Source: Clostridiales bacterium
Lineage (GTDB): Bacteria; Bacillota; Clostridia; Christensenellales; Aristaeellaceae
NCBI GenBank assembly: GCA_029012285.1
Contig: JAQXLU010000103.1
Coordinates: forward strand, 1-43,338
Direction of reading: 5' to 3'
DNA: 43,338 nt
Below the pieces are notes generated by a model. The model worked only from the letters and a program-made list of their open reading frames with translations, had not been told where the DNA came from and ran no database searches. Made by a program: the position numbers and the translations under genes. Shown piece after piece: positions 17,607 to 35,383 of this stretch. Every line of letters begins with the position of its first letter. Within the stretch, counting starts at the first letter, position 1.

Positions 17607-19135
<1,529 letters not shown>

Positions 19136-19139
<4 letters not shown>

Positions 19140-20572
19140 TTGCTTGACCTCCTTGTCAATGGCTGCTCGAATTTATTTTTGCCCTGTTCCTCGGGGATGG
19201 GGATGGGATATTGACCGGTGAAGCACCCGTCGCAGAAGCGGCAGCCCTCGTCCCCGGCCAGACGGTGCGCGTCCTGCACGCTCAGGTACGCCAGGGAATC
19301 CGCCCCGATATACCGGGCAATGGCCTCCACGTCCGGCAAGCGGCAGGCGATGAGGTTCTCCTGGCTGTCCACGTCCGTGCCGAAGTAGCAGGGGTGGCGG
19401 AAGGGCGGCGAGGAGATGCGCATGTGCACCTCCCTCGCTCCGGCCTCACGCAGCAGCCCCACGATGCGGGCGCTGGTGGTGCCGCGCACGATGGAATCGT
19501 CAATCAGCACCACCCGCTTGTCGCGCACCGTATCGGCAATCACGTTCAGCTTGATGCGCACCGCGTTCTCCCGCATGCGTTGGTTGGGCGCGATGTAGCT
19601 GCGGCCCACGTAGCGGTTCTTGACGAAGCCTACGCCGTAGGGGATGCCGCTCTCCTGGGAAAAGCCGATGGCCGCGTCCAGCCCGGAATCCGGCACGCCG
19701 ATCACCACGTCCGCCTTGGCGGGGCTCGCCTTGGCCAGGTACATCCCGGCCCGCTTCCGCGCCGCGTACACCGACGCGCCCCCGATCACCGAATCCGGCC
19801 TGGCGAAGTAGATGTACTCAAACAGGCACAGCGAGGCAGCCCGTCCGCAGTGGCGGCGGTCGGAGCGAACCCCGTCCGCGCCGATGATGAGCACCTCGCC
19901 GGGCTCGACCTCCCGGATGAAGCGTGCGCCCACCGCCGACAGCGCGCAGGATTCGGACGCGACCACATACGCGCCCTCGGCCGTCTGCCCGTAGCACAGC
20001 GGGCGGAAGCCGTTCTTGTCCCGGAAGGCGATGAGCTTGGTGGCCGTCATCAGCACACAGGCGTAGGCCCCCTGGATGCGCGGCATGGCCTGGGCCACGG
20101 CCTCCTCGGTGGAGGGGGCCCGCAGCCGTTCGGACACGATGGTGTAGGCGATGGATTCCGTGTCCGTCGTGCCGTGGAAGATACCGCCCCGCATTTCGTG
20201 CTCGCTCCGTAGCGAGTTGGCGTTGACCAGATTGCCGTTGTGGCACAGGGCCATGTTGCCCTTGATGTGGCAGACCACTACGGGCTGGATGTTATTGGGG
20301 TTTTTGCCGCCGGTGGTGGAATAGCGCACATGGCCCACGGCGATGCTGCCCTGGCCCAGCTCCTCCAGGGCGGCGCGATTGAACACGTCTCCCACCAGGC
20401 CGTCGGCGCGGTGCTGGCGGAACACGCCGTCGTCGCTCAGCGCGATGCCGCAGCTTTCCTGCCCCCGGTGCTGAAGGGCGTACAGCCCGTAGTAGACCAT
20501 CTCCGCCACGTCCGTCCGCTCCGGCGACCACACCCCGAATACGCCGCATTCTTCGTGCAGCATGTCGAACAT
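19136..20572 (-). CDS. purF: Amidophosphoribosyltransferase
   Basis: First committed step of purine synthesis: PRPP plus glutamine gives phosphoribosylamine. 478 residues. A short propeptide MFDMLHEE precedes CGVFG, whose Cys becomes the N-terminal nucleophile after processing. The PRPP site is VVLIDDSIVRGTTSARI near residue 350. Cysteines in RHPCYFG and in CRFCDGC match the 4Fe-4S ligands of the oxygen-labile B. subtilis type, which fits an anaerobe. The ATG at 20572 follows a GGGGGG site; starting three codons later would lose that spacing. First gene of the seven-gene operon. Confidence 0.96.
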
Positions 20573-20615
20573 TCAAATCCCCCCTGTTTACAGGTGTTTG
20601 AGTGCCCCCAATGGT

Positions 20616-20654
20616 AAAGGGGATCACAGCACATTTGCCGTGACCCCCTTGTCA
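20616..20654 (-). promoter_or_regulatory. purF leader: ANTAR-type hexaloop hairpin overlapping a terminator-like hairpin
   Basis: On the RNA strand TGAC and GTCA close the six-base loop AAGGGG (20641-20654), with A at loop position 1 and G at 4. The same bases begin a larger hairpin: AAGGGGGTCACGGCA (20636-20650) pairs over 15 positions with TGCTGTGATCCCCTT (20617-20631) around the loop AATG. It is followed by only three T residues in a row. The two folds exclude each other. Transcription should start about five bases upstream of the first hairpin. Confidence 0.6.
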
Positions 20655-20665
20655 ACAACGGTACA

Positions 20666-20694
20666 ATTATATGCGCGCGGCATATCGTTGTCAA
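20666..20694 (-). promoter_or_regulatory. Consensus sigma-A promoter of the purF operon
   Basis: Minus strand TTGACA (20689-20694), a 17-base spacer and TATAAT (20666-20671): a full match to consensus. The predicted start is near 20659, giving a leader of about 87 bases. A promoter this strong usually needs tight control; the PurBox-like pair upstream and the leader hairpins supply candidates. Confidence 0.92.
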
Positions 20695-20728
20695 CAGGTG
20701 ATTTAAATTTTGACGGTTTTTTGTGTGG

Positions 20729-20773
20729 GAATGTGAACATTCGATGGGCAGAGCCGGGTTAATGTTCGTTGTT
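20729..20773. promoter_or_regulatory. PurBox-like inverted pair (PurR operator candidate)
   Basis: On the purF sense strand AACAACGAACATT (20761-20773) matches 11 of 13 positions of the B. subtilis PurR box AWWWCCGAACWWT. The opposite strand carries GAATGTGAACATT (20729-20741), which keeps the GAACATT core but not the CC. The two cores face each other with 19 bases between them and end 35 bases upstream of the -35 box. Bacillota PurR operators are built as such inverted pairs. Confidence 0.65.
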
Positions 20774-20798
20774 TTGGGGGAATAGGGGGACGGGTGCG

Positions 20799-21032
20799 CT
20801 TGTTGGGGCTGGGTGAGCTGTTTCACGAATCCGGGGGATTCGCGAAAGGCGCGCGGAGTGCTTTGCGCCTGCGGGCGCGGAGGAAGGGGCGCTGCCCCTT
20901 CACCCTGGCAGGGCCTTCGCGGCCCTGCACCCCGCAAGGGGCATCACGCAGATGCGGCTGCCCAGTGGGCAGTTGCCGAAGGCAAAGCATCAAGTGATGT
21001 TGAATAGCCCCTTGACCCGTTTTTTTGCGGGG
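20799..21032. repeat. Modular palindromic repeat family 2, copy 2 (inverted relative to copies 1 and 3)
   Basis: Read on the minus strand it starts CCCCGCAAAAAAACGGGTC five bases after the asnB stop codon. It holds the ACTTGATGCTTTGCC and CTGCCCACTGGGCAG module of copy 1, then the GGGTGAAGGGGCAGCGCCCC and CGCAGGCGCAAAGCA module of copy 3. It ends with the TTCGCGAATC hairpin and CACCCAGCCCCAACAAG. Together with the purF control region it fills 20573-21037; no gene is seen there. Confidence 0.8.
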
Positions 21033-21037
21033 ATTGG

Positions 21038-22618
21038 TTATTGGCCGCTGGCGCCATAGTTCGACAAGACACGCGCAGAGGGATCATTCACATCGCAGCC
21101 AGGCCATGTCTTGTTCGGCATCCAGAAATCCACAACCATCTCGCTCTGCCCAGGATAATACCGCTCAAACAGCTCCCGATACAGCAAGCTCTCCTTGGTG
21201 AACGGCCTTGCATGCGTATACCGCATCGCCTTCTCAGCCGCCTCCTCATCCGTGTAGGCCGCCTCCGCAGCCGCCTTCAAATCATCCACCATGGAGTGCC
21301 CCACCGCATCGGAGAACGCAGCCTTCTGCCGCCACAGGATGGCCTCGGGCAGAATCTGATCCGCCGCAAAGGCCTTGCGGATCAGGTACTTGCCCATGTT
21401 GTGCCGGTTCATCTTCAGCACGGGGTCAATGCTCATGGCGTAGCGCACAAAGGCCAGGTCGCCAAAGGGCACGCGGGCCTCCAGGGAGTTGACGGAGATG
21501 CACCGGTCGGCCCGCAGCACGTCGTACATGTGCAATTCGCGGATGCGCTTCTCCGCCTCATGCTGGAAGGCGGCTGCATCCGGCGCAAAGTCAGTGTACT
21601 TGTAGCCGAACAGCTCGTCGGAGATTTCGCCCGTCAGCAGCACCCGCACGTCGGTATGCTCGTGAATGTACTTGCATACAAGATACATGCCGATGCTGGC
21701 GCGGATGGTGGTGATGTCGTAGGTGCCCAGCAGCGCCACCACGGTGGGCAACGCCTCCAGCACATCCTCCTTGGTGATGATGACCTCCGTGTGGTCGCTG
21801 CCGATGTAATCGGCCACCATGCGGGCGTATTTGAGGTCAATGGCGTCCACATCCATGCCGATGGCGAAGGTGCGGATGGGCTTCTTCAATTCCCGCTGGG
21901 CAATGGCGCACACCAGGGAGGAATCCAATCCGCCGGAGAGCAGGAAGCCCAGGGGCGCATCCGCGTCCAGGCGCTTGCGCACGCCCTCCACCAGCAAATC
22001 GTGGAGCTTTGCGCACACGGTATCCTCATCAGCCAGCACATACTGGCTGACCTGGGCCGGGTCAGCATACTGGACGAACTCGCCCTCCGCCCAGTAATGC
22101 CCGGGCGGGAAGGGCAGCACCTTCTCGCACAGGCCGATCAGGTTCTTCGCCTCGCTGGCGAAGGCCATGCCGCCGTCGGGGAGCACGCCGTAGTACAGCG
22201 GACGGATGCCGATGGGGTCGCGCGCCGCGATGAGGCTGTTCCGCTGGCTGTCGTAGAGGATGAGCGCGAACTCCGCGTCCAGGGCCTTGAACATGTCCAG
22301 GCCGTATTCGCGGTAGAGGGGCAAAAGGATCTCGCAGTCGGATTGGCTGGCAAACTCGTATTTTGCCATCAGCCGGTCGCGCACCGGGCGGAAGCCGTAC
22401 AATTCGCCGTTGCACACCACCCGATCCTCGCCCAGGTGGAAGGGCTGCATGCCGCGCTCGTCCAATCCCATGATTGCCAGGCGGTGGAAGCCCAAATAGC
22501 CGCAGGGAATCTCCTCCAGGCGGCTCATGTCCGGCCCGCGGGAGATGGTGCGATTAAAGCATCCCTCCAGAACGGTCTTGTCAACTTGCAGGGACGAAAT
22601 ACCTAAGATGGAACACAT
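21038..22618 (-). CDS. asnB: Asparagine synthetase (glutamine-hydrolysing)
   Basis: Makes asparagine from aspartate, ATP and glutamine-derived ammonia. 526 residues, close to E. coli AsnB (554). The N-terminal Ntn amidotransferase domain needs removal of Met to expose Cys2 (MCSILGISS); RGPD and GFHRLAIMG line the glutamine site. The synthetase domain starts with the PP-loop LLSGGLDSSLVCAIA near residue 230. EARVPFGDLAFVRYAM matches the conserved C-terminal segment. The start follows AAAGGAG. It is divergently transcribed from glnA and faces away from the purine operon only by a repeat and control region. Confidence 0.96.
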   Translation of the reverse strand: MCSILGISSLQVDKTVLEGCFNRTISRGPDMSRLEEIPCGYLGFHRLAIMGLDERGMQPFHLGEDRVVCNGELYGFRPVRDRLMAKYEFASQSDCEILLPLYREYGLDMFKALDAEFALILYDSQRNSLIAARDPIGIRPLYYGVLPDGGMAFASEAKNLIGLCEKVLPFPPGHYWAEGEFVQYADPAQVSQYVLADEDTVCAKLHDLLVEGVRKRLDADAPLGFLLSGGLDSSLVCAIAQRELKKPIRTFAIGMDVDAIDLKYARMVADYIGSDHTEVIITKEDVLEALPTVVALLGTYDITTIRASIGMYLVCKYIHEHTDVRVLLTGEISDELFGYKYTDFAPDAAAFQHEAEKRIRELHMYDVLRADRCISVNSLEARVPFGDLAFVRYAMSIDPVLKMNRHNMGKYLIRKAFAADQILPEAILWRQKAAFSDAVGHSMVDDLKAAAEAAYTDEEAAEKAMRYTHARPFTKESLLYRELFERYYPGQSEMVVDFWMPNKTWPGCDVNDPSARVLSNYGASGQ

Positions 22619-22663
22619 GGGGACGCTCCTTTCTCCCGTTGCCGGGGTTCAAATTTTGCGTGC

Positions 22664-22693
22664 ATTCTATCATCAGCCACGATGCGCTGTCAA
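22664..22693 (-). promoter_or_regulatory. Sigma-A promoter of asnB
   Basis: Minus strand TTGACA (22688-22693), an 18-base spacer and TAGAAT (22664-22669). The leader is short (about 38 bases) and contains a small CCCG-GCAA-CGGG hairpin, but no hexaloop hairpin of the glnA kind. Confidence 0.8.
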
Positions 22694-22819
22694 CCACAAA
22701 TTTCTCAGGAAACAGGCGTGATTTGCAGGATTCTATATAGGAAAATGCAAAATTTTGCGTCCTCCCGGCGCAAAACAGGCAAATACAGGAGAAAAACAAT
22801 TTGCCCCTGCAAAACCCCC

Positions 22820-22848
22820 TTGACAAGGGCCATGCCCGGTGCTATGAT
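22820..22848 (+). promoter_or_regulatory. Sigma-A promoter of the glnA operon
   Basis: TTGACA, a 17-base spacer and TATGAT. The predicted start near 22855 places the leader hairpin at the very 5' end of the transcript. Between this and the asnB promoter, AAATTTTGCGT occurs twice (22651-22661 and near 22752) as a direct repeat of unknown meaning. Confidence 0.87.
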
Positions 22849-22855
22849 TTTTCCC

Positions 22856-22910
22856 GACAGAGCAAGGGTGCTGTGCCGATGAGGTACAATCCTGCTCTGT
22901 CTTTGATTTT
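22856..22910 (+). promoter_or_regulatory. glnA leader: ANTAR-type hexaloop hairpin versus long terminator-like hairpin
   Basis: Long fold: GACAGAGCA (22856-22864) pairs with TGCTCTGTC (22893-22901), then GGGT with ATCC and TGTGCC with GGTACA around the loop GATGA, giving 19 pairs with a few bulged bases, followed by TTTGATTTT. Alternative fold: AGC and GCT (extended by CA/TG after one G-G mismatch) close the hexaloop AAGGGT (22864-22869), with A at position 1 and G at 4. The alternative uses the same 5' bases, so only one fold can exist at a time. Confidence 0.6.
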
Positions 22911-22934
22911 GCAAGGCAAATGGAGGGAGCTTTT

Positions 22935-24266
22935 ATGAGCAAGTACACCAGGGACGATATTATCCGCATGGTCAAGGAAAACGACGTGGAATTCATCCGC
23001 ATGCAGTTTACCGATATCTTCGGCCAGCTCAAGAATGTGGCGATCACCGCCAGCCAGATCGAAAAGGCAGTCGACAACAAGATCATGATCGACGGCAGCT
23101 CCATTGAGGGCTTTGTGCGCATCAACGAGAGCGACCAGTGCCTGCATCCCGACCTGGACTCCTTCACCATCCTGCCCTGGCGTCCCCAGCACGGCAAGGT
23201 GGCCCGACTGATCTGCGATGTGTTCAACCCCGATGGCACACCCTTTGTGGGCGACCCCCGCGGCGTACTCAAGAAGGTGCTCAAGAAGGCCGCCGATATG
23301 GGCTACTCCTTCAACGTCGGCCCGGAATGTGAGTTCTTCCTCTTCCAGACCGATGAGAAGGGCCGCCCCACCACCGAAACCTCCGACGAGGCCGGCTACT
23401 TCGACCTGGGCCCCCTCGACCATGGCGAATCCACCCGCCGCGAAATCTGCATGACCCTGGAGCAGATGGGCTTTGAAATCGAAGCCTCCCACCATGAGGT
23501 GGCTGCCGGTCAGCACGAGATCGACTTCAAGTATGCCGACGCTCTGACCGCCGCCGACAACATCATGACCTTCAAGCTGGCGGTCAAGACCCTCGCCCAG
23601 AAGAACGGTTTGCACGCAACCTTCATGCCCAAGCCCGTGTTTGGCATCAACGGCAGCGGCATGCACACCAACATGAGCTTGTTCAAGGACGGCGTGAACG
23701 TCTTTGCCGATCCCACCGACAAGCGCGGATTGAGCAAGGAAGCCTACGCCTTCATCGCGGGTATCCTGACCCACATCAAGGGCATGACCGCCATCACCAA
23801 TCCCCTGGTGAACAGCTACAAGCGCCTGGTGCCCGGCTATGAAGCCCCCTGCTACCTGGCCTGGAGCGCCAGCAACCGCTCCGCGCTCATCCGCATCCCC
23901 GCGGCCCGCGGCCAGGCCACCCGCGTGGAGCTGCGCTGCCCCGACCCCGCCTGCAACCCCTACCTGTCCCTGGCGGTGTGCCTGGCCGCCGGTCTGGACG
24001 GCATCGAGAAGGGCCTCACCCCGCCGGCGGAGATCACCGAGAACATCTTCGCCATGGACGCGGCCACCCGCAAGGCCAACGGCATCGACAGCCTGCCCGG
24101 TACGCTGAAGGAGGCCATCGAGTGCATGAAGGCGGACGCGCTGGTCTGCGATGCCCTGGGCGAGCACGTCACGGCCCAGTACGTTGCGGGCAAGGAAAAG
24201 GAATGGGACGCCTTCCGCACCCATGTCAGCGCCTGGGAGATTGACCGCTACCTCGTGACCTACTGA
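22935..24266 (+). CDS. glnA: Glutamine synthetase, class I-alpha
   Basis: Fixes ammonium onto glutamate with ATP; cytosolic dodecamer. 443 residues, the size of the Bacillota I-alpha type. Seen: the beta-grasp N-terminus with [17 protein letters not shown], which keeps the arginine used for glutamine feedback in B. subtilis; the magnesium ligands in GPECEFFLF and [12 protein letters not shown]; the ATP region [17 protein letters not shown]; and the glutamate flap region [10 protein letters not shown]. The adenylylation loop of the I-beta type is absent, so control by GlnE is not expected. The start at 22935 follows GGAGG. First gene of glnA-regulator-gltB-gltD-pyrG-dapL. Confidence 0.97.
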
Positions 24267-24284
24267 TGAACGAAGCCCACTCCA

Positions 24285-24315
24285 GCGTGTGTATTTAATA
24301 TGAAGGAACGCACGC
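24285..24315 (+). other. Hairpin between glnA and the ANTAR regulator gene
   Basis: GCGTGTGT pairs with ACGCACGC over eight positions around a 15-base A/T-rich loop. No T run follows, so it is more likely a processing or stability element than a full terminator. It could lower regulator output relative to GlnA. Confidence 0.5.
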
Positions 24316-24342
24316 GAACAGGAAAAGAGAGTGTGATGACCG

Positions 24343-24864
24343 ATGGTAAAGATCATCGTCGCTTTTCCCAGTGAGGAGCGATGTGCACAGTATTCCGCCG
24401 CGCTGGAGGAAGCGGGCTATCCGGTGTTCCGCACCTGCCAGTCCGGGAGCGAGGTGAAGCGCACGCTGAACCAGTGCCACGACGGCATTGTCATCTGCGC
24501 CTGCCGCATGCCGGACTGCACCGCCGAGCAGCTGGCCTGGGACATCCACGACAACGCGATGATCCTGGTCACCGGCCGGCCGGATCAGCTGGAATTGTGC
24601 GAATCCCCCGATTTGTTCCGCCTGGCCTCCCCCTTCACGAGAGGTGAATTGTCAAGCGCCGTGTCCATGCTGGTGCAGATGCATCAGATGAAGCTCCCCC
24701 GGCGCAGCAAAGCAGAGAACGAAACCATTGCCCAGGCCAAGGTGCTCCTGATGGAGCGCCACGGCATGACCGAGCCCGAGGCTCACCATTACCTGCAGCA
24801 GCATGCCATGAACCGGGGCATGAAGCTGACAGAATACGCCAGCAAGGTGCTGGAAAGTCGATAA
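24343..24864 (+). CDS. ANTAR-domain antitermination regulator with degenerate receiver (NitR-like)
   Basis: RNA-binding antiterminator candidate, 173 residues. The C-terminal ANTAR domain (about 118-173) is clear: IAQAKVLLMERHGMTEPEA, then LQQHAMNRGMKLTEYASKVL, with the three-helix pattern and conserved Ala/Lys/aromatic positions. The N-terminal domain (1-115) has a receiver-like fold pattern but lacks the acidic pair after strand 1 (IIVAFPSEE), has Ala where the phosphoacceptor Asp should be (VICACRMPD), and has SPF in place of the usual KPF. Phosphorylation is therefore unlikely. The ribosome binding site is weak. In Clostridium a regulator of this type, NitR, sits between glnA and the glutamate synthase genes, as here. 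Confidence 0.85.
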   Translation: MVKIIVAFPSEERCAQYSAALEEAGYPVFRTCQSGSEVKRTLNQCHDGIVICACRMPDCTAEQLAWDIHDNAMILVTGRPDQLELCESPDLFRLASPFTRGELSSAVSMLVQMHQMKLPRRSKAENETIAQAKVLLMERHGMTEPEAHHYLQQHAMNRGMKLTEYASKVLESR

Positions 24865-24882
24865 TATATGGAGGCGCTCGCC

Positions 24883-27800
24883 ATGACCACTGCCTATCCG
24901 CTCTATGATCCAATGATGGAACACGAATCCTGCGGTGTCGGAGCTGTGGTCGACCTGGCGGGCGCCCCTTCGTATCGCACCGTTTCGGACGCGCTGACCA
25001 TCGTCGAGCGCCTGGCCCACCGCGCCGGACATGACGCCCTGGGCACCACCGGCGACGGCGTAGGCATCCTCACCCAGCTGCCCCATGACCTCTTTGCTGC
25101 CTGGGCTGCTCAGACCGGCGTGGCCCTGGGGGACAGAGGCGATTACGGCGTGGCCATGTGCTTTTTACCCGGGGATGAAATCGCTGCGGACAACGCCTGC
25201 CGCATCTTCGCCCAGGTGACCCGGGCGGAAAAGCTGGCGCTGCTGGGCTGGCGGGATGTGCCCGTCCACCCGGAAATGCTGGGCGCGGGCGCGCGGCGCT
25301 CCATGCCCTGCATCCGCCAGTGCTTCATCGCCCGACCGGCGGATTGTGCCCGAGGGCTGGAATTCGACCGCAGGCTTTATCTGCTGCGCCGCCAGTTTGA
25401 GCATCAGCAGACGGATACCTTCGTGTGCTCCCTGTCCAGCCGCACCATCGTCTACAAGGGCATGATGCTGGTCGGCCAGCTGCGCACCTTCTACGACGAT
25501 TTGCAGTCCCCCCTGTACCGTTCCCGCCTGGCGATGGTACATTCCCGCTTTTCCACCAACACCAATCCAAGCTGGGCCAAGGCCCATCCCCACCGGCTGC
25601 TTCTGCACAATGGCGAAATCAACACCATCCGCGGCAATGCAGACCGCATGCACGCCCGGGAGGAAACCATGCGCAGCCCCGTGATGGGCGACGCGCTCAA
25701 GAAGGTGTTCCCCGTCGTGATGGCGGATGGCTCCGACTCCCAAATGCTGGACAACACCCTGGAATTCCTGCTCATGAACGGCCTGCCCCTGCCCCTGGCC
25801 GGGATGATTCTCCTCCCCGAGCCCTGGCAGGGCAAGCAGAGAACCCCCTGGACGGATATGTACCGCTACTGGGCTGCCATGATGGAGCCCTGGGACGGCC
25901 CGGCCGCCGTGCTCTATTCCGACGGCGACACGGTCTGCGCGTCCCTGGACCGCAACGGCTTGCGCCCGCTGCGCTGCGCCCTGACCGACGAGAACCGGCT
26001 CATCCTGTCCTCCGAGGCGGGGGTGCTCCACGAGGAGAGCAGCCGCATCGTGCGGCGCTGGCGGCTCAAGGCGGGCGGTATCCTGCTGGCCAATCTGACC
26101 AATGGCGAATTGCTGGACAGCGAGGACGTCAAGGACTTTTACGCCAAGGCCCTTCCCTATGGGGAATGGATGCAGGGCGCGCTTCGCCTGTCCGACCTGC
26201 CCCCGGCCGCTCCCCAGGCGGCGGAGATGTCCATAGCCGAGCGAACCCAGCTGTGCAAAGCCTTCGGCTATGCCTACGAGGACGTGCAGGACGTTATCCT
26301 CCCCATGGCGCAAACGGGCGCGGAGCCCATCGTGTCCATGGGCGCGGACGAGCCCATGGCAGTGCTGTCCAAGGCACATCCGCCGCTGTACAGCTACTTC
26401 AAGCAGCGCTTCGCCCAGGTGACCAACCCGCCCATCGACGCGCTGCGGGAGAAAATCAAAACCGATTGTACCATTTATATAGGAGACGACGGCAATCTGC
26501 TCGATCCCACGGCGGACAACGCCACGGTGATTGAGCTCCCCGGCCCGGTGCTCACCGCGGATGATCTGGCCCGGCTGCGCCAGATGCGCCATCCGGCCTT
26601 CCGGGTGCGGACGATCTCCATCCTCTACCGCAAGGACGGCAAGCTGGAGGACGCGCTGCACACCCTCTACGCCGCTTGTGACGCGGCGGATCGCGAGGGC
26701 TTCAACATCCTCATCCTCTCCGACCGGGGGGTTGACGAGCAGCACATGGCCATCCCGTCCCTGCTGGCGGTCTCGGCCCTGGAGCAGCACCTGGTGCGCA
26801 CCAAGCGGCGCACGGCCATCTCCGTGCTGCTGGAAAGCGGCGAGCCCCGCAATGTGCACCAGCTGGCAATGCTGCTGGCCTACGGCGCGCGGGCGGTGAA
26901 CCCCTACCTGGCCCATGCTTGCATCGGCACGCAGGAGGGGGTCAACAACTTCAACCGCGCCCTGACCGACGGCGTGCTCAAGATCGCCTCCAAGATGGGC
27001 GTATCCACCCTCCAGGCCTATCAGAGCGCCCAGCTCTTTGAGGCCCTGGGCCTGGATGAGGACTTTGTGGAGCACTGCTTCACCAACACGCCCTGCCGCA
27101 TAGGCGGCGCGGGGCTCCCCCGCATCGAGGCGGATGCCCGCTACCACCATGACCGGGCCTTTTGCCATCCGGAGGATGCGTCCCTGGACAGCGTGGGCGT
27201 GCATCGGCTGCGCAAGGGAGCAAACGCCGAGGAGCACCTGTACACGCCGGAAGTCATCCACATGCTGCAGCAGGCGGTCTGGACGGATGATTTCCAGCTC
27301 TTTGGCCGCTACGCTGACCGCATTGTGAACGACGGCCCCCGCACCATCCGCTCCCTGCTGGATTTTGCCTACGACCGCTGCACCCCCATCCCCCTGGAGG
27401 AGGTGGAGGCTGTTAGCAGCATCGTCAGGCGCTTCAAGACCGGGGCGATGTCCTACGGCTCCATCTCCAAGGAGGCCCACGAGTGCATGGCCATCGCCAT
27501 GAACCGCCTGGGCGGCAAGTCCAACAGCGGCGAGGGCGGCGAATTGCCCGAGCGCTTCGGCACGGAGCTGAATTCCGCCATCAAACAGGTGGCCAGCGGC
27601 ATGTTCGGCGTGACGCGGGAATACCTGCAAAGCGCCAGCGAAATTCAAATCAAGATGGCCCAGGGCGCGAAGCCCGGCGAGGGCGGACATCTCCCGGGCC
27701 GCAAGGTCAGCGCGGAGGTCGCCCGGACCCGCTGCTCCACCAAGGGCATCTCCCTCATCTCCCCCCCGCCCCATCACGACATCTATTCCATTGAGGACCT

Positions 27801-29166
27801 GGCCCAGCTCATCTACGACCTTCAGTGCGCCAACGAAGAAGCCCATGTGACGGTGAAGCTGGTCTCCACCACGGGCGTTGGCACCATCGCCAGTGGCGTG
27901 GCGAAGGCTGGGGCCCATGGCATCCTGATTTCCGGCGGCGAGGGCGGTACTGGCGCGGCGCCGCTGAGCAGCGTGCATCACGCGGGTCTGCCCTGGGAGC
28001 TGGGCTTGGCCGAGGCGCATCAAACCCTGTGCCGCAACGGGCTGCGCCAGTGCGTCCGCCTGGAAACCGACGGCAAATTGATGTCCGGCCGGGATGTGGC
28101 CGTGGCGCTGCTGCTGGGCGCGGAGGAATTCGGCTTTGCCACCGCGCCGCTGATCACCATGGGCTGCCGGATGATGCGCGTGTGCCACCTGGGCACTTGC
28201 CCCTTTGGCATCGCGACCCAGAACCCCGAGCTGCGCAAGCGCTTCATCGGCAAGCCCGAATATGTGGAGCGCTTCATGCGCTTCGTGGCCGAGCAGCTGC
28301 GCGGCATCATGGCCAGGCTCGGCGCGCATACCGTGGACGAGCTGGTCGGCCGGGCTGATCTGCTCACGGTGCGCGAGGGCTGCCCCATCAACCTCCAGGG
28401 CGTGACCGGCTTTGGCTGCAACATCCACTTCCGGGAGGAAGCGGCCTACAACTTCCACCTGGAACGTCGCGCGGACGTGAACCTCACGGGTGACCATGCC
28501 GCGCTTTTGACCACCGACCGGACCTTCGGCACGCTGCTCAAGGGCAGCGTCACGGTGGAGGCCACGGGCTGCGGCGGACAATCCTTCGGTGCGTTCCTGC
28601 CCCAGGGACAGACGCTTCTGCTGCGTGGCGAGTGCAACGACTACCTGGGCAAGGGCCTCTCCGGCGGCGTGATTGCCGTCTGCCCGCCCACCCAGGGCGT
28701 GTGGCACGCCCAGGACGCGCTCATCGGCAACGTGGCGCTCTACGGCGCGACCAGCGGCATCTGCTGCATCGCCGGTATGGCGGGCGAGCGCTTCTGCGTG
28801 CGCAACTCCGGCGCCAGCGCGGTGGTGGAGGGCGTGGGCGACCACGGCTGCGAATACATGACCGGCGGCCGGGCGGTCATTCTGGGTGAAATCGGGGAGA
28901 ACTTCGCGGCGGGCATGTCCGGCGGCGTGGCCTATGTGCTGGATGACGGCACGGCGAGCCGCCGCATCAACAGCCAGCTGGTGGAGGTCTGCCCCGTCAC
29001 CGGGGATTACGCCCGTGAGCTCAAGGAACTGCTGACCACCCATGTGGCCCTCACCGCATCCCCCAGGGCGAAGGACATCCTGGATCGCTTTGAGGACGTG
29101 CTGCCCCGTTTCCTGATGGTGATTCCCACCGAATACCGCCGCGTGCTGGAAGGAGGAGAAGCGTAA
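24883..29166 (+). CDS. gltB: Glutamate synthase large subunit
   Basis: Transfers the amide of glutamine to 2-oxoglutarate, giving two glutamates. 1427 residues. A 16-residue propeptide precedes CGVGAVVDLAG, whose Cys17 becomes the nucleophile. Order: glutaminase domain (17-about 400), central domain, FMN-binding synthase domain (about 830-1150) with YGSISKEAHECMAIAMNRLG and GGEGGTGAAPLSS, the 3Fe-4S cysteines in GCRMMRVCHLGTCPFGIATQ near 1093-1106, and the C-terminal GXGXG beta-helix from about 1190. I choose ATG 24883 because GGAGG lies eight bases ahead of it; an in-frame ATG five codons earlier overlaps that site. It overlaps gltD by one base. Confidence 0.97.
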   Translation: MTTAYPLYDPMMEHESCGVGAVVDLAGAPSYRTVSDALTIVERLAHRAGHDALGTTGDGVGILTQLPHDLFAAWAAQTGVALGDRGDYGVAMCFLPGDEIAADNACRIFAQVTRAEKLALLGWRDVPVHPEMLGAGARRSMPCIRQCFIARPADCARGLEFDRRLYLLRRQFEHQQTDTFVCSLSSRTIVYKGMMLVGQLRTFYDDLQSPLYRSRLAMVHSRFSTNTNPSWAKAHPHRLLLHNGEINTIRGNADRMHAREETMRSPVMGDALKKVFPVVMADGSDSQMLDNTLEFLLMNGLPLPLAGMILLPEPWQGKQRTPWTDMYRYWAAMMEPWDGPAAVLYSDGDTVCASLDRNGLRPLRCALTDENRLILSSEAGVLHEESSRIVRRWRLKAGGILLANLTNGELLDSEDVKDFYAKALPYGEWMQGALRLSDLPPAAPQAAEMSIAERTQLCKAFGYAYEDVQDVILPMAQTGAEPIVSMGADEPMAVLSKAHPPLYSYFKQRFAQVTNPPIDALREKIKTDCTIYIGDDGNLLDPTADNATVIELPGPVLTADDLARLRQMRHPAFRVRTISILYRKDGKLEDALHTLYAACDAADREGFNILILSDRGVDEQHMAIPSLLAVSALEQHLVRTKRRTAISVLLESGEPRNVHQLAMLLAYGARAVNPYLAHACIGTQEGVNNFNRALTDGVLKIASKMGVSTLQAYQSAQLFEALGLDEDFVEHCFTNTPCRIGGAGLPRIEADARYHHDRAFCHPEDASLDSVGVHRLRKGANAEEHLYTPEVIHMLQQAVWTDDFQLFGRYADRIVNDGPRTIRSLLDFAYDRCTPIPLEEVEAVSSIVRRFKTGAMSYGSISKEAHECMAIAMNRLGGKSNSGEGGELPERFGTELNSAIKQVASGMFGVTREYLQSASEIQIKMAQGAKPGEGGHLPGRKVSAEVARTRCSTKGISLISPPPHHDIYSIEDLAQLIYDLQCANEEAHVTVKLVSTTGVGTIASGVAKAGAHGILISGGEGGTGAAPLSSVHHAGLPWELGLAEAHQTLCRNGLRQCVRLETDGKLMSGRDVAVALLLGAEEFGFATAPLITMGCRMMRVCHLGTCPFGIATQNPELRKRFIGKPEYVERFMRFVAEQLRGIMARLGAHTVDELVGRADLLTVREGCPINLQGVTGFGCNIHFREEAAYNFHLERRADVNLTGDHAALLTTDRTFGTLLKGSVTVEATGCGGQSFGAFLPQGQTLLLRGECNDYLGKGLSGGVIAVCPPTQGVWHAQDALIGNVALYGATSGICCIAGMAGERFCVRNSGASAVVEGVGDHGCEYMTGGRAVILGEIGENFAAGMSGGVAYVLDDGTASRRINSQLVEVCPVTGDYARELKELLTTHVALTASPRAKDILDRFEDVLPRFLMVIPTEYRRVLEGGEA

Positions 29167-30554
29167 TGGGCAAGCCCACCGGATTCATGGAAGTCCCCCG
29201 GGTGGAGAACCCCCTGCGGGACGCGACATCCCGCGTGAACGACTTTTCCGACCTGCACGATTCCCTTTCCGATAGCGAGCGGGCCTGCCAGGCTTCCCGC
29301 TGCATGAGCTGCGGCGTACCCTTTTGCCAGAGCGACTACGGCTGCCCGCTGCACAACCTCATTCCCGAATGGAACGATCTGCTCTACCGGGGCGACGTCC
29401 GCGCCGCCTTTGACCGGCTGGTGAAAACCGCCCCCTTCCCGGAGTTCACCGGGCGGGTGTGCCCCGCGCTGTGCGAGAAGGCCTGCAATCTGGCTGACGA
29501 CGGCGTGACCAACCGGGACAACGAGCTTTACCTGATTGAGGAAGGCTTCCGCAACGGTTGGGTGCAGCCGAGCGCCCCGGTAAAGCGCACCGGCTGGTGC
29601 GTCGCGGTGATTGGCAGCGGCCCGGCGGGTCTGGCGGCGGCGGAGCTGCTCAACAGCCTGGGCCATACCGTGACCGTGTTTGAACAGGCGGACCGCGCCG
29701 GGGGACTGCTGACCTACGGCATCCCCCAGATGAAGCTGCCCAAGGACGTCGTGGCGCGCCGCATCGAGCTGATGCAGCAAGAAGGGGTGACCTTCTGCCT
29801 GGGCAAGCGCGCCGATGCGACGCTGCTGCCCGATTACGACGCGGTGATCCTCTGCGGCGGCAGCCGTCAGCCCCGCACGCTGAATGTGCCGGGCGAAAAG
29901 GCTCCTGGCGTGCATTTCGCCGTGGATTACCTCACCGCCGCTACCCGCGCGGTGCTCTCCGGCGGCGTGCCGGCCCTTTCCGCTCAGGGCAAGCAGGTGA
30001 TTGTGGTTGGCGGTGGCGACACGGGCAACGATTGCGTGGGCACGGCGCTGCGCCAGGGCTGCCAATCGGTGCTCCAGCTGGAGGTTGCGCCCGCCCCGCC
30101 CCAGGGCCGCGCGGCGAACAACCCCTGGCCCCTGTGGCCCCGCGTGCTGCGCACCGATTACGGCCAGACGGAAGCCATCGCCCTGCAGGGCAGCGACCCG
30201 CGGCTGTTTCAAACCACAGTCAAACAGGTGCTGACGGATAAACAGGGTGCGGTGCGAGCCGTCGAAATCATCCGGGTGGACGAGAAATTCGCGCCCATCC
30301 CCGGCACGGAAAGGACACTGCCCTGCCAGCTGCTGCTGATTGCCGCAGGCTTTGTGGGGTGCGAAATCGCCACCGCCCGGGATTTCTCCCTGACGCTGAA
30401 TCAGCGGGGCGTGCCGGAAACAGGCAGCGGCCATTGCATCGGCGGCAAGCTCTTTGCGGCGGGGGATTTCCGCACGGGCCAGTCCCTGGTGGTGCGGGCC
30501 ATCGCCGACGGCCGCGCCGCTGCCCGGGAAGTGGACCAATATCTGATGAGGTGA
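29166..30554 (+). CDS. gltD: Glutamate synthase small subunit
   Basis: FAD protein that passes electrons from NAD(P)H through Fe-S clusters to GltB. 462 residues. The N-terminal cluster-binding region shows [19 protein letters not shown] and [11 protein letters not shown]. The FAD fold begins [20 protein letters not shown] near residue 140. The NAD(P)H fold shows [19 protein letters not shown] near residue 278. The gene begins at TAATG, sharing one base with the gltB stop, so the subunits are translationally coupled. Confidence 0.97.
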
Positions 30555-30559
30555 CGGGT

Positions 30560-32176
30560 ATGACCAAGTATATTTTCGTGACTGGCGGCGTGGTATCGGG
30601 CCTGGGCAAAGGCATCACCGCCGCGTCCCTGGGGCGGCTGCTCAAGGCGCGGGGCTTGCGGGTCGCCGCGCAGAAGCTTGACCCCTACATCAACGTCGAC
30701 CCCGGCACCATGAGCCCCTACCAGCACGGCGAGGTGTTCGTCACCGAGGACGGCGCGGAAACCGACCTCGACCTGGGCCACTACGAGCGCTTCATCGACG
30801 AGGATCTGAACCGCTTCTCCAATTTAACCACCGGCAAAGTGTACGCCAACGTCATCAGCCGGGAACGCCAGGGCGGCTTCCTGGGCGGCACGGTGCAGAC
30901 CATCCCCCACATCACCGATGAAATCAAGCATTTCATCTACGCCGTGGGACAAAAGACCGATGCGGATGTGGTTATCACCGAGATCGGCGGCACCATTGGC
31001 GACATCGAGAGCCAGCCCTTCATCGAGGCCATCCGCCAGGTGGGCCGCGAGGCAGGCCGCGGGAACGCGCTGTACATCCACGTCACCCTGGTGCCCTATT
31101 TGAAGGCCTCGGGCGAGCACAAGTCGAAGCCCACCCAACATTCCGTCAAGGAGCTGCAGGGCATGGGCGTGACCCCGGACATCATCGTGCTGCGTTCGGA
31201 CGAGCCCATCACGGACAGCGCCATTTTCCGCAAGATTGCCAGCTTCTGCAACGTCGCGCCGGATTGCGTGATCGAAAACCGCACCCTGCAAAGCCTCTAC
31301 GAGTGCCCGCTGATGCTGGAGGAGGCCAATCTCTCCGGCATCGTGTGCCGGGAGCTGGGCATCGACGCGCCCGCCCCCGACCTGGCCGAGTGGCGCGCCA
31401 TGGTGGAGCGCATCCGCCATCAGAGCCGCCGCGTGGTGATCGGGCTGGTGGGCAAGTACGTGCAGCTCCACGACGCCTACCTGTCGGTGGTGGAGGCGCT
31501 GCGCCACGCGGGTTACGCGCTGGACGCGAAGGTGGATATCCGCTGGATTGACTCGGAAACCATCACCCCCGAAAGCGTCCAGGAGGTGCTCTCGGGGCTG
31601 CATGGCATCATCGTGCCCGGCGGCTTTGGCAACCGGGGCATCGAGGGAATGATCCTCTCCGCCCAGTACGCCCGGGAAAACCACATCCCCTATTTCGGTA
31701 TCTGCCTGGGCATGCAGATCGCGGTCATTGAAGCCGCGCGCCACATGGCGGGGCTGGAGAACGCCAATTCCCACGAGTTTGACGAGTGCACCCCCTACCC
31801 GGTGATCGACTTCATGCCCGGCCAGTCCGACGCGATTGACAAGGGCGGCACGCTCCGCCTGGGTAGCTATCCCTGCCAGATCAAGCCCGGCACGACGATG
31901 GAAGCATGCTACGGCGCGGCGTCCATCGCCGAGCGCCACCGCCATCGCTATGAGGTGAACAACGATTACCGCGCCGCCCTGGAGCAAGCCGGGCTGACGC
32001 TCAGCGGCCTGTCCCCGGACGGGCGGCTGGTGGAGGCGGCGGAGTTGACGCAGGAGGCCTTCTACCTGGGCGTGCAGTTCCATCCGGAATTCAAGTCCCG
32101 GCCCAACAAGGCGCATCCCCTCTTCCGCGGCTTCGTGGCCGCGGCGGCGGACGTGGCTGCCAGGGAGGTGCAGTGA
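30560..32176 (+). CDS. pyrG: CTP synthase
   Basis: Converts UTP to CTP with ATP and glutamine. 538 residues, normal. The synthetase domain begins [20 protein letters not shown] and contains [20 protein letters not shown]. The class I amidotransferase domain has [14 protein letters not shown] with the catalytic Cys, and [17 protein letters not shown] with the His/Glu pair. Begins five bases after the gltD stop. Its presence inside a nitrogen-assimilation operon ties pyrimidine output to glutamine supply. Confidence 0.97.
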
Positions 32177-33384
32177 TGCTTAAGCCCAATGCGCATTACG
32201 CGGATCTGAAGGATTCCTACCTATTTTATAATATCGCGCAGAAAACAAAGGCCTTCACCGCCGAAAACCCAGATAAGCCACTGCTCCGCATGGGCATCGG
32301 CGATGTGTCCCGCCCGTTGTGCGACGCTGTGATTTCAGCCCTGCACGAGGCCGTGGAGGATCAGGCGACGCCGGGACGCTTCCACGGCTATATGCCCGAA
32401 TGCGGTGCGCCTGTCCTGCGCCAGACCATCGCCGCCCACTATGCCCGCCGGGGCGTGACGCTCTCCCCCGAGGAGGTGTTCGTGTCCTCCGGCGCGTCGG
32501 ATGAGCTGGGCGACATCCTGGACCTGTTCGACCGTGACAGCGCCGCGCTGGTCATTGAGCCCGCCTATCCCGCCTATGTGGACGCCAACGTCATGGCGGG
32601 GCGGCGCATCGTGCATCTGTCCTCCGGCATTGAGAACGGCTTCCTGCCTGCCCCGAACGAGGACATCGACGCGGACATCCTCTACATCTGCTCGCCCAAC
32701 AACCCCACCGGCGCGGTGTTCAGCCGGGAACAGCTGCAAGCCTGGATTGACTTTGCCAACCGCCGGGGCGCGGTGATCCTCTTCGACGCGGCTTACGAGG
32801 CCTTCATCGAGGACGACGCACTGCCCCACAGCATCTTCGAGCTGCCCGGCAGCCGGAATTGCGCCATCGAAATCTGCTCCCTGTCCAAGACGGCGGGCTT
32901 CACCGGCACCCGGCTGGGCTACACGGTGATCCCCCTGGAGCTGGAACGCCAGGGCATGCGCTTCAACGCCATGTGGGTGCGCAACCGCACCACCAAGACC
33001 AACGGCGTGTCCTACATCATCCAGAAGGGCGCATCGGCAGTGTTCACCGAGGAAGGGCAGCGGCAGATTCACGAGAACATCCGGATATACAAAGAGAATG
33101 CCCGGGTGCTAATGGACGCGCTGGATGCGCTGGGCATTTGGTATTGCGGCGGACGGAATGCGCCGTATATCTGGATGAAGTGTCCTGATGGGATGGATAG
33201 CTGGACATTTTTTGATAAGCTGCTGAGGGAGATCCAGGTGGTCGGCACGCCGGGCGAGGGCTTTGGCGCATGCGGGGAAGGGTATTTCCGGTTTTCGACG
33301 TTTGCCAGTCCCGAGGATACCCGGGAAGCCGCCAAACGCCTAACCACCCTCCTCTCGCGAAGCGAAAACGGGTCAAGGGACTAA
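32176..33384 (+). CDS. dapL: LL-diaminopimelate aminotransferase
   Basis: PLP enzyme making LL-diaminopimelate directly from tetrahydrodipicolinate with glutamate as amino donor, for lysine and peptidoglycan synthesis. 402 residues. Seen: ICSPNNPTGAVFSREQL, then FDAAYEAFI and the lysine site CSLSKTAGFTGTRLGYT, which is the DapL form of the motif. The start at 32176 shares one base with the pyrG stop and follows GGAGG. A general aspartate-type aminotransferase role cannot be excluded. The last ten codons (after LTTL) lie within a copy of repeat family 2, so the natural C-terminus was probably replaced when the repeat arrived. Confidence 0.9.
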   Translation: MLKPNAHYADLKDSYLFYNIAQKTKAFTAENPDKPLLRMGIGDVSRPLCDAVISALHEAVEDQATPGRFHGYMPECGAPVLRQTIAAHYARRGVTLSPEEVFVSSGASDELGDILDLFDRDSAALVIEPAYPAYVDANVMAGRRIVHLSSGIENGFLPAPNEDIDADILYICSPNNPTGAVFSREQLQAWIDFANRRGAVILFDAAYEAFIEDDALPHSIFELPGSRNCAIEICSLSKTAGFTGTRLGYTVIPLELERQGMRFNAMWVRNRTTKTNGVSYIIQKGASAVFTEEGQRQIHENIRIYKENARVLMDALDALGIWYCGGRNAPYIWMKCPDGMDSWTFFDKLLREIQVVGTPGEGFGACGEGYFRFSTFASPEDTREAAKRLTTLLSRSENGSRD

Positions 33385-33536
33385 GTCCCTTGCAGGGTCC
33401 AGGGACAGCGTCCCTGGCAGGGTGAAGGGGCAGCGCCCCTTCCTCCGCGCCCGGAGGCGCAAAGCAGCCCCGCGCGCCTTTCGCGAATCGAATGATTCGC
33501 GAAACAGCCCACCCAGCCCCAACAAGGCTCCCCTTT
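33354..33536. repeat. Modular palindromic repeat family 2, copy 3
   Basis: Starts CTCGCGAAGCGAAAACGGGT inside the 3' end of dapL. A chain of small palindromes follows: GGGACTAAGTCCC, GGGACAGCGTCCC and GGGGCAGCGCCCC. It then has the CGGAGGCGCAAAGCA part shared with copy 2 and the end hairpin TTCGCGAATC-GAAT-GATTCGCGAA followed by ACAGCCCACCCAGCCCC. The remaining bases to the amt gene are its leader. Confidence 0.82.
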
Positions 33537-33586
33537 CGCCACCACGATTCACCCGTCATCCAAAGCATATCAACCAAATACCAAAA

Positions 33587-33635
33587 GGACAAGGGTGTCC
33601 GCCAAGTGCCAAAAGCACCGCGGACGCCCTTTTCA
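33587..33635 (+). promoter_or_regulatory. amt leader: ANTAR-type hexaloop hairpin overlapping an intrinsic terminator
   Basis: GGAC and GTCC close the hexaloop AAGGGT (33587-33600). The same loop begins the 5' arm of a 12-pair stem, AAGGGTGTCCGC (33591-33602) with GCGGACGCCCTT (33620-33631), capped by a GTGC-CAAAA-GCAC inner hairpin and followed by TTTT and A/T-rich sequence. The folds exclude each other. I could not place a promoter for this leader with confidence; it may be reached by read-through from dapL or by a weak local start. Confidence 0.65.
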
Positions 33636-33667
33636 TATAGATGACAACAATACAGGAGGGATTTTCC

Positions 33668-35383
33668 ATGAGTGAAGTATGGAGCGTATGGTTTCTGATC
33701 GGCGCCGCCCTGGTTTTCTGGATGCAGGCGGGCTTTGCGATGGTGGAGGCAGGCTTCACCCGGGCAAAGAACACCGGCAACATCATTATGAAGAACCTGA
33801 TGGACTTCTGCATCGGCACGGTGGTGTTCATCGTCATCGGCTTTAGTCTGCTGCTGGGCGAGGACGTGCTGGGCCTTATCGGCAAGCCGGGCTTCGACCT
33901 GTTCACCGCCTATGAGAACTTCGACTTCTCCGGCTTTGTGTTCAACCTGGTGTTCTGCGCCACCACGGCGACCATCGTGTCCGGCGCGATGGCGGAGCGC
34001 ACCAAGTTCCTGTCCTACTGCATCTATTCCGGCGTGATCTCCGCGCTGATCTACCCCATCGAGGCACACTGGATCTGGGGCGGCGGCTGGCTGGCCCAGC
34101 TGGGCTTCCATGATTTTGCGGGCTCCTGCGCCATCCATATGGTGGGCGGCATCTCCGCGCTCATCGGCGCGAAGATCCTGGGCCCGCGCATCGGCAAGTT
34201 CCATCGCGACGCCTCCGGCAAGGTGGATAAGGTGCATGCCTTCCCCGGCCATAGCATTGCGCTGGGCGCGCTGGGCGTGTTCATCCTGTGGCTGGGCTGG
34301 TATGGCTTCAACGGCGCGGCGGCGACCTCCGTGGCGCAGCTGGGCTCCATCTTCCTGACCACCACCGTCGCGCCCGCTGTGGCCACCGTGGTGTGCATGA
34401 TTTTCACCTGGGTCAAGTACGGCAAGCCCGACGTTTCCATGTGCCTGAACGCCTCCCTGGCGGGCCTGGTGGCCATCACCGCCCCCTGTGACGTGACCGA
34501 CTGCTTCGGCGCGATCGCCATCGGCGCGGTGGCGGGCGTGCTGGTGATCTTCGGCGTGTGGCTGCTGGACTACAAGCTCCACATCGACGACCCCGTGGGC
34601 GCTGTGGCTGTGCACTGCCTGAACGGTATCTGGGGCACGCTGGCGGTGGGCCTGTTCGCCACCAGCACCGCGCCGGGCTACGCCATCGCCAATGCCGCAG
34701 GCAAGACGCTGACGGGCTTGTTCTACGGCGGCGGCTTTGAGCTGCTGGGCTTGCAGCTGCTGGGCTTTGGCAGCGTGGCGCTGTGGACGGCGGTGACCAT
34801 CACCATCACCTTCCTGGTGATCAAGAAGTGCATCGGCTTGCGGGTCAGCCGGGAGGAGGAAATCACCGGCCTGGATGCGACCGAGCATGGTCTGCCCTCC
34901 GCCTACGCAGGCTTCGCGATGCTGCCTGAATCCGTTGCGGACAGCGCGCCTGTGGTCGTCTCCGGCGATGTGCCCGTGGCGGAATCCATCCCCGTGAAGA
35001 AGATGCCCACCTTCGAGGACGGCACTGCACCCAAGATGACCAAGATCGAGATCATCTGCAAGGAGGCCCGTCTGGAAGCCCTCAAGAATGCCATGACCAC
35101 CATTGGCATCAACGGCATGACCGTGTCCCATGTGATGGGCTGCGGCGTGCAGAAGGGTAAGCCCGAATACTACCGCGGCGTGCAGGTGGAAGCCACCCTC
35201 CTGCCCAAGGTGCAGGTGGACATCGTGGTCAGCAAGGTGCCCGTGCGCACGGTGATCGACACCGCCAAGAAGGTGCTCTACACCGGCCACATCGGCGACG
35301 GCAAGATCTTCGTCTACGACGTGGAGAACGTGGTGAAGGTCCGCACCGGCGAGGAAGGCTACGACGCGCTGCAGGACGAATAA
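33668..35383 (+). CDS. Ammonium transporter fused to a PII signalling domain
   Basis: Membrane ammonium channel (residues 1 to about 405, eleven predicted spans) joined by a linker to a full PII/GlnK domain (from about residue 457, MTKIEIICKEARLEALK). The Amt part keeps the two pore histidines in DFAGSCAIHMVGG and DDPVGAVAVHCLNGI. The PII part keeps MGCGVQKGKPEYYRG, the LPKVQVDIVV strand and the HIGDGKIFVYDVENVV ATP-binding segment. The residue matching Tyr51 of E. coli GlnB is Val (YRGVQVEATLLPK), so uridylylation there is impossible. Start chosen from AGGAGGG. In most bacteria GlnK is separate and plugs the trimer; here it is tethered. Confidence 0.95.
   Translation: MSEVWSVWFLIGAALVFWMQAGFAMVEAGFTRAKNTGNIIMKNLMDFCIGTVVFIVIGFSLLLGEDVLGLIGKPGFDLFTAYENFDFSGFVFNLVFCATTATIVSGAMAERTKFLSYCIYSGVISALIYPIEAHWIWGGGWLAQLGFHDFAGSCAIHMVGGISALIGAKILGPRIGKFHRDASGKVDKVHAFPGHSIALGALGVFILWLGWYGFNGAAATSVAQLGSIFLTTTVAPAVATVVCMIFTWVKYGKPDVSMCLNASLAGLVAITAPCDVTDCFGAIAIGAVAGVLVIFGVWLLDYKLHIDDPVGAVAVHCLNGIWGTLAVGLFATSTAPGYAIANAAGKTLTGLFYGGGFELLGLQLLGFGSVALWTAVTITITFLVIKKCIGLRVSREEEITGLDATEHGLPSAYAGFAMLPESVADSAPVVVSGDVPVAESIPVKKMPTFEDGTAPKMTKIEIICKEARLEALKNAMTTIGINGMTVSHVMGCGVQKGKPEYYRGVQVEATLLPKVQVDIVVSKVPVRTVIDTAKKVLYTGHIGDGKIFVYDVENVVKVRTGEEGYDALQDE

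Follow-up and report, generated by a model that had tools for sequence, protein, structure and literature searches.

A predicted nitrogen and glutamine regulon under ANTAR antitermination with one hexaloop per terminator

We analyzed 43,338 nucleotides (nt) of DNA from a Clostridiales bacterium of the family Aristaeellaceae (contig JAQXLU010000103.1 of assembly GCA_029012285.1, positions 1 to 43,338; referred to here as the window). The leaders of its purF, glnA and ammonium transporter (amt) genes each carry one small hairpin with a six-base loop (hexaloop) that overlaps an intrinsic terminator, and an ANTAR protein is encoded behind glnA. We conclude that these leaders very probably belong to a nitrogen and glutamine regulon controlled by ANTAR antitermination, in which each terminator has a single hexaloop and protein binding and antitermination are predicted from sequence. 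A regulon of this kind had been proposed in a first-pass annotation of the window; the proposal gains support from the recurrence of the hairpin in relatives, compensatory changes in its stem, a loop with A at positions 1 and 2 and G at position 4 (A1, A2 and G4), the overlapping terminator and the co-occurrence of sites with ANTAR genes.

Results

Both strands of the window were scanned for CANNGNNG hexaloops on stems of at least 3 bp, and the AAGGG(G/T) hairpins that the first-pass annotation had described in the three leaders were all present. In the glnA leader (plus strand), the hexaloop AGC[AAGGGT]GCT lies at 22861..22872 (closing C at 22863), 12 nt past the -10 box of a sigma-70-type promoter (TTGACA-17-TATGAT, 22820..22848) that was read from the sequence and aligned with 57 other elements. 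The hexaloop is overlapped by a terminator hairpin with a 9-bp ungapped stem and a U-rich tail (22856..22909), which scores 38 bits with the first covariance model (R1) described below. On the minus strand, the purF promoter TTGACA-17-TATAAT (20666..20694, read from the sequence and the element alignment) is followed by TGAC[AAGGGG]GTCA (20641..20654, closing C at 20651), again 12 nt past the -10 box when counted to the inner 3-bp stem; this site scores 20.4 bits with the second model (R2). Its terminator hairpin (20612..20650, arms 20650-20617) has a 15-bp ungapped stem and a tail of TTT only. The amt hexaloop GGAC[AAGGGT]GTCC (plus strand, 33587..33600, closing C at 33590) is overlapped by a terminator hairpin with a 12-bp ungapped stem and a T tail (33591..33637), and no -10 box upstream of the window's amt copy satisfied our rule. 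The leaders fold with energies of -26.3 (purF), -28.6 (glnA) and -29.8 (amt) kcal/mol, and both sequence and folding indicate that hexaloop and terminator are mutually exclusive. The overlap with a larger terminator-like hairpin, claimed for each leader, was borne out in this way, and the annotation had also seen the weak points correctly: a G.G mismatch after 3 bp of the glnA stem, the short purF tail and one hexaloop per leader.

Outside genes, the scan gave no site other than these three whose overlapping stem reached 9 bp and was followed by a T-rich tail; one more 9-bp overlapping case, at 13923, is intragenic. As a control for chance, we used 43 loci (663 kb), with glnA leaders left out save L020, which slipped through. 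Loops AAGGG overlapped a terminator in 19/91 cases versus 10/491 for nine permuted loops (Fisher p = 5e-10). This confirms that the three hairpins are genuine and far above chance. The covariance models of Rfam matched only tRNA in the window, nothing at E <= 1 in 22750-22960 and nothing in 20 related loci.

To follow the element in relatives, 150 genomes of the family were drawn, 86 of which had an ANTAR match. We retrieved 40 ANTAR loci, one from each of 40 genomes, along with 40 regions at hits of R1, 40 regions comprising mostly other glnA types and distant ANTAR genes, and 31 regions at hits of R2. The common gene order was asnB<->glnA-ANTAR-gltB-gltD-pyrG, and a C[AAGGGN]G hexaloop on at least 3 bp was found in 30 of the 36 glnA leaders examined (genome G129 being represented twice). 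R1 was modelled on glnA terminators; it detects amt and purF leaders poorly and at weak scores catches other terminators (21 of the 40 regions around its hits yielded rows among the elements described next). R2 was therefore made from promoter plus hexaloop. A first alignment, which included long-loop amt leaders, misplaced the 3' arms and was superseded by alignment A2.

Among 85 intergenic rows with the core motif, 75 had an assigned gene or a recognizable protein start, and these make up our set of elements, which is curated and not an unbiased census. The 75 elements have a single hexaloop hairpin, C[AARGGN]G, overlapping an intrinsic terminator. They precede glnA (38 rows, one of them false), amt (14), aminotransferase genes (4), asnB (4), purF (3), glmS-type genes (2, labelled purF by similarity), guaA, pyrG, gltD and one gene labelled gltB; six unassigned rows read as glnA (3), amt (2) and a GNAT-type acetyltransferase. 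As to single rows, L040 (antisense to amt) is false, L055, the one labelled gltB, is a glnA-type leader, and the asnB row L078 sits 327 nt from asnB.

R2 runs from the -35 box through the hexaloop; it models the sequence alone and includes neither base pairs nor a terminator. We read 47 sites found with it: 31 new hits in the family (E up to about 9e-4) and all 16 hits in the class outside the family. To be called full, a site needed 3 bp or more in its stem and had to be overlapped by a hairpin that ended in a T-rich tail and scored at least 17 on our own scale. Thirty-two of the 47 were full, and 29 of these 32 stood ahead of nitrogen or glutamine genes; no such gene followed any of the 14 readable sites that lacked stem plus terminator. 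In the family, 17 of the 31 sites were full and 16 of the 17 precede nitrogen genes (glutamine synthetase type III [GSIII], 6; gdh, 4; pyrG, 2; and glmS, gltB, amt and an ANTAR gene), and no recognized nitrogen gene was found after the 14 nonfull family sites. In the class, 15 of the 16 sites were full, and the sixteenth (L204) is truncated. The genes behind the 15 are GSIII (6), amt (3), gdh (2), two for amidotransferases, one of the PPDK type and one for an ATP synthase subunit. The genes were identified with Pfam for 10 representatives and, for most others, by tblastn with these and the window proteins. Twenty of the 31 family hits had been taken mostly because their match reached the hexaloop; the other 11, from outside those loci, included none that was full and none with a recognized nitrogen gene. 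The hit on contig C20 of the window's own genome was a bare promoter. The ANTAR gene with an element is a second such gene of G031 (L180); its own promoter-locked hexaloop leader suggests autoregulation.

Absence of covariation in relatives had been named beforehand as an outcome that would refute the regulon; compensatory changes in the stem were found both in the family and in the class. In 27 aligned leaders, picked for stems of at least 3 bp, 98.8% of the hexaloop cells and 84.0% of the terminator cells were paired, with 27 double-change cells in the terminator, and the paired percentage and the covariation score were matched by 0/500 shuffles. From the first 36 R2 sites, found with a model without pairing, 28 distinct 18-mers were used for pair counts: 78.0% were paired over 6 bp, versus 32.7 to 51.2% in slid controls, with 29 double-change cells, and 0/500 shuffles reached the pairing, double-change or covariation score. 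The inner three stem pairs lie within the R2 consensus, so that inner pairing of R2 hits is partly expected; the outer pairs and the terminators are absent from the model, whose training rows were chosen for stem and terminator. In 26/58 and 12/28 rows, G.U forms the second stem pair, and loop positions A1, A2 and G4 are near constant across relatives.

The position of the hairpin relative to the promoter is also largely conserved. The gap from the -10 box, measured in 74 of the 75 elements to the inner 3-bp stem, was 11 to 12 nt in 44 of 61 non-amt elements and 10 to 14 nt in 51 of 61; amt elements had gaps of 6 to 24 nt (median, 19). At 11 to 12 nt after the -10 box, the hairpin should therefore lie at the 5' end of the transcript, which, judging from the box, would begin a few nucleotides ahead of it. 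Between the -10 box and the hairpin, an A1/G4 hexaloop on at least 3 bp was found in 0/75 elements. Downstream, a second A1/G4 hexaloop of any type was found in 3/75, rarer than the 10.7 expected from shuffles, and a core-type second loop in 0/75. Measured against the definition of a dual target RNA, an A1/G4 hexaloop with at least 3 bp was present, and two hairpins with a short linker were not. Six class leaders (L197, L200, L203, L205, L206 and L210) have a second hexaloop 61 to 131 nt downstream, and both hexaloops of a leader have an overlapping terminator of their own; in this they are unlike the dual motif, whose linker is short. Stacked attenuators of this kind occur in leaders of GSIII, amt and amidotransferase genes.

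These data bear on two other explanations of the sites. One would be a classical dual-hexaloop element in which the first hairpin has degenerated or been missed, as might be supposed because characterized ANTAR targets are reported as dual (PMC3369931, PMC8164766). We regard this as extremely improbable, since no upstream hexaloop was seen, 11 to 12 nt is too short for one, and second loops downstream are rarer than expected. The other is a DNA operator: a DNA-binding repressor would recognize a palindrome covering roughly +5 to +17, and the terminator would be incidental. The fixed spacing to the -10 box is what would be expected of a promoter-overlapping operator, but a G.U second pair is tolerated by RNA and not by a DNA palindrome, the letters of the hairpin also pair within a covarying terminator, the amt sites lie about 7 nt farther downstream, the second hexaloops and terminators of the six class leaders are far from the promoter, and the sites follow ANTAR, an RNA-binding domain. 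An operator is very unlikely for these reasons.

If the sites are read by an ANTAR protein, they should occur together with its gene. Counting only the strict element, i.e., hexaloop plus terminator, we found it in 43 of 64 glnA genes that are followed by an ANTAR gene versus 1 of 19 that are not. The one exception (L053 of G036) is apparently a glnA gene split over contigs, because contig C52 of the same genome carries the remainder of glnA, followed by ANTAR. Moreover, the orthologous glnA genes (81 to 84% identical) of L117 to L119, from genomes without a detected ANTAR gene, had no element. Within the family, an ANTAR match was present in 42/44 genomes that had R2 sites at E <= 1e-5 versus 44/106 of the others. 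This comparison is partly circular, most training genomes of R2 having carried ANTAR. The test in the class is free of this circularity: 196 of 391 class genomes had an ANTAR match, and ANTAR was found in 16/17 genomes with an R2 site versus 180/374 others (p = 1e-4), or in 15/16 with the window's own genome left out (p = 2e-4). In G311, G523, G227 and G422, site and ANTAR gene are on one contig, 1.8 to 6.9 kb apart.

The attenuators might instead be run by another factor, such as glutamine synthetase, another RNA-binding protein or a small molecule, with ANTAR only sharing the glnA operon. This would account for the site-bearing genomes in which no ANTAR was found (G039, G059, G109 and G192), and direct binding by ANTAR is only predicted. 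But the loop retains A1 and G4, described as known ANTAR determinants (PMC3369931, PMC8934654), the co-occurrence is class-wide and extends beyond neighbors of the ANTAR gene, and the element is absent from L117 to L119, whose genomes gave no ANTAR match. Control by another factor is, on this evidence, unlikely.

The ANTAR gene of the window (24343..24864, plus strand; assigned by PF03861 and alignments) lies between glnA and gltB, as the first-pass annotation had it, and its product, the proposed antiterminator, is a protein of 173 amino acids with a receiver-like domain and an ANTAR domain. The latter scored 60.9 bits against a curated cutoff of 27.3 (E = 4.0e-17 in the genome search), and no other ANTAR domain was found in the assembly, which is about 95% complete. 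The phospho-acceptor Asp of the receiver is not kept: VIMDVKMP of Rv1626 aligns to VICACRMP, and the position is also Ala in the profile aligned to EutV. The signal to the protein therefore probably does not come from a kinase, as far as the degenerate receiver tells. In 27 aligned relatives, out of 63 listed ANTAR open reading frames (ORFs), K133, E144, H148, Q152 and M156 are invariant. By alignment, with the residues matched by counting, their EutV equivalents are K149, E160, Y164, R168 and M172, of which K149, E160, Y164 and M172 are described as lying around the hexaloop and its G4 (PMC8934654). Y164 of EutV is replaced by His148 in 27/27 relatives, as in AmiR. In columns 132 to 139 of alignment A4, 21/27 ANTAR proteins lack 8 residues ahead of the ANTAR domain that are present in the more distant L099, L124, L125 and L127, so that the coiled coil of the 21 may be shorter.

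The genes behind the three leaders form two strings and a single gene. On the minus strand, purF (19136-20572, Pfam) heads a string at 12565..20572 that contains purF, guaA, the SAICAR synthetase gene and carA (by Pfam) and, after carA, an ORF of 1,061 amino acids (12565-15750), presumably carB from its length and order. On the plus strand, glnA encodes a glutamine synthetase of type I (22920..24266, Pfam Gln-synt_C/N), and the ANTAR gene is followed in line, over 24868..32176, by gltB (24868-29166), gltD (29166-30554) and pyrG (30560-32176), with an aminotransferase gene next in the string. The names gltB and gltD are our reading of the sequences, and the two served as queries under these names; pyrG was named by Pfam. 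Pyrimidine genes are included, as had been claimed, with carA in the purF string and pyrG in the glnA string, both downstream of the leaders. The product of amt (33641..35383, plus strand; Pfam Ammonium_transp and P-II) is fused to a C-terminal PII (GlnK-like) domain; such an Amt-PII fusion in a single protein is a possible sensor for the ANTAR protein. The asnB gene of the window is on the minus strand, separate from the purF string.

Two side observations concern the intergenic and leader sequences of the window. A hexaloop hairpin with a 5-bp stem, TTGAC[AAGGAG]GTCAA (19144-19159, minus strand), has A1 and G4 and carries the Shine-Dalgarno sequence of guaA in its loop; it is similar in sequence to the hairpin of the purF leader and may be either a site for translational control by ANTAR or a product of chance. 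Furthermore, a GC-rich intergenic repeat (matches of 74 to 144 bp, 82 to 91% identical) occurs at 20799-20940 (near purF and asnB), 33387-33526 (before amt) and 9217-9394, and by eye similar stretches are also in L049 of the same genome.

Discussion

The predicted mechanism is as follows. The ANTAR protein encoded behind glnA would be a nitrogen-responsive antiterminator whose target transcripts start a few nucleotides before a hairpin with at least 3 bp and a loop AARGGN. By default, parts of the hairpin (either loop plus 3' half or the 5' half) would pair with downstream RNA to form the terminator, and transcription would end after about 50 to 60 nt. An active ANTAR dimer would clamp the single hexaloop as it emerges from RNA polymerase and so block the terminator, and glnA-ANTAR-gltBD-pyrG, amt and purF-guaA-SAICAR synthetase-carAB would be transcribed; in relatives, gdh, GSIII, asnB, glmS, guaA, gltB, gltD and an aminotransferase gene would be under the same element. 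An ANTAR dimer is described as contacting one hexaloop at a time (PMC8934654), which fits default termination and antitermination by a dimer on the hexaloop. The analysis shows the anatomy of the leaders, their covariation, promoter spacing and gene context, the co-occurrence with ANTAR, the conserved pocket residues and the degenerate receiver; transcription starts, RNA-protein contact and antitermination are inferred. Control of the ANTAR protein would be exerted by protein contact or a ligand rather than by phosphorylation, with GlnA and the PII domain of Amt as candidates.

Some of the elements and the protein resemble known systems. With EutV and the dual-hexaloop targets of eut, nasF and amiE, the window shares an A1/G4 hexaloop on at least 3 bp, an ANTAR output domain and the overlap of the hexaloop with the 5' side of an intrinsic terminator; the purF and amt hairpins also have a closing C-G with A-U below, like the AC/GU pairs of eutP. 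In contrast to the two hexaloops spaced 5 to 12 nt in eut, there is one per terminator here, the hairpin lies no more than a few nucleotides from the inferred start and usually keeps a constant spacing to the -10 box, the loop is narrowed to AARGGN, and the protein, unlike EutV, has a pseudo-receiver. AmiR likewise has a pseudo-receiver without a phospho-acceptor (PMC8934654) and shares the His at the position that stacks on G4; AmiR itself responds to AmiC.

Nitrogen genes are known ANTAR targets. NitR of Clostridium saccharobutylicum, an ANTAR protein, is described as inducing glutamine synthetase/GOGAT genes by antitermination on nitrogen limitation (PMC6316151), and by analogy the regulon of the window would also be activated on nitrogen limitation. 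The likeness to NitR, as described in a review, lies in ANTAR activation of such genes; the regulon considered here extends further, to purF, guaA, pyrG, asnB, glmS, gdh and GSIII. ANTAR elements have also been predicted before genes for glutamate/glutamine synthase, ammonium transporters and PII in Desulfotomaculum and Pelobacter (PMC3369931). These are the same nitrogen gene types, but that search demanded two hexaloops, so that single sites were outside its scope. Dual-hexaloop ANTAR nitrogen regulons (PMC3369931), dual-motif definitions (PMC8164766) and NitR (PMC6316151) were known already; the single-hexaloop, promoter-locked antiterminators predicted here are a new form. In the literature searched, the phrase "single hexaloop" together with ANTAR occurred in PMC8934654 only, and no other paper on single-hexaloop antiterminators or on this regulon was among the matches listed, as judged from titles and openings of abstracts, with subscription papers mostly outside the search.

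Several findings weigh against the antitermination regulon proposed here. EutV in vivo is reported to require both hexaloops (PMC3369931), and the equivalents of its R142/K143 and R168 are not retained in the window protein. Changed pairs and pair types, two of our five measures of covariation, did no better than shuffling, with shuffle counts of 191/500 for the 27 leaders, 330/500 for 58 rows and 238 and 450/500 for the 28 18-mers. The strict element was missing from 21 of the 64 glnA genes that have ANTAR behind them; 8 of the 21 are distant glnA genes (40 to 48% identity), and some others have weaker versions. Strong sites without an ANTAR match occur in G039 (83% complete), G109 (68%) and, in the class, G192. 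Of the three purF elements, two belong to genomes that gave no ANTAR match, G039 and G059 (the latter 87% complete). Finally, three full sites, L192, L199 (PPDK type) and L207 (ATP synthase a subunit), have no nitrogen gene. In L192 of G140 (1010-1130), the full unit of promoter, hexaloop and terminator has letters near-identical to those of the GSIII leader L189 of the same genome; no GSIII or other nitrogen gene was recognized within the 4 kb read, and it is possibly an orphan RNA. In L207 and L199, both from the class, a promoter-locked hexaloop and a strong terminator stand before the ATP synthase a-subunit and PPDK-type genes.

The use of one hexaloop in place of two is a conserved design in this family. 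We tentatively extend the regulon model, at a confidence somewhat short of even, to the following picture: the promoter-locked single hexaloop (about +5 to +17) is the first structure to leave the polymerase and loads the dimer in the course of promoter escape or right after it, perhaps aided by a promoter-proximal pause; it replaces the first, "catching" hexaloop that had been proposed as necessary; and a single pseudo-receiver ANTAR protein controls in this way almost all entry genes that make glutamine and many that use it (GSI, GSIII, GOGAT, GDH, Amt, PurF, GuaA, PyrG, AsnB and GlmS) across much of the class (probably Clostridia). That promoter-locked placement solves the problem of timing is conjecture.

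With the structure of EutV bound to RNA, a single hexaloop became the minimal ANTAR site, and the single-hexaloop antiterminators predicted here bear on the question that this structure left open. Single-hexaloop sites with overlapping terminators occur family-wide and beyond, and antitermination is seemingly achieved with one hexaloop; the system would be a minimal RNA switch. The site model can be used to annotate nitrogen regulons in uncultured bacteria. For the physiology of these bacteria, the regulon suggests that glutamine-using biosynthesis, i.e., that of purines, CTP, asparagine and amino sugars, is coupled to the nitrogen status at the level of RNA.

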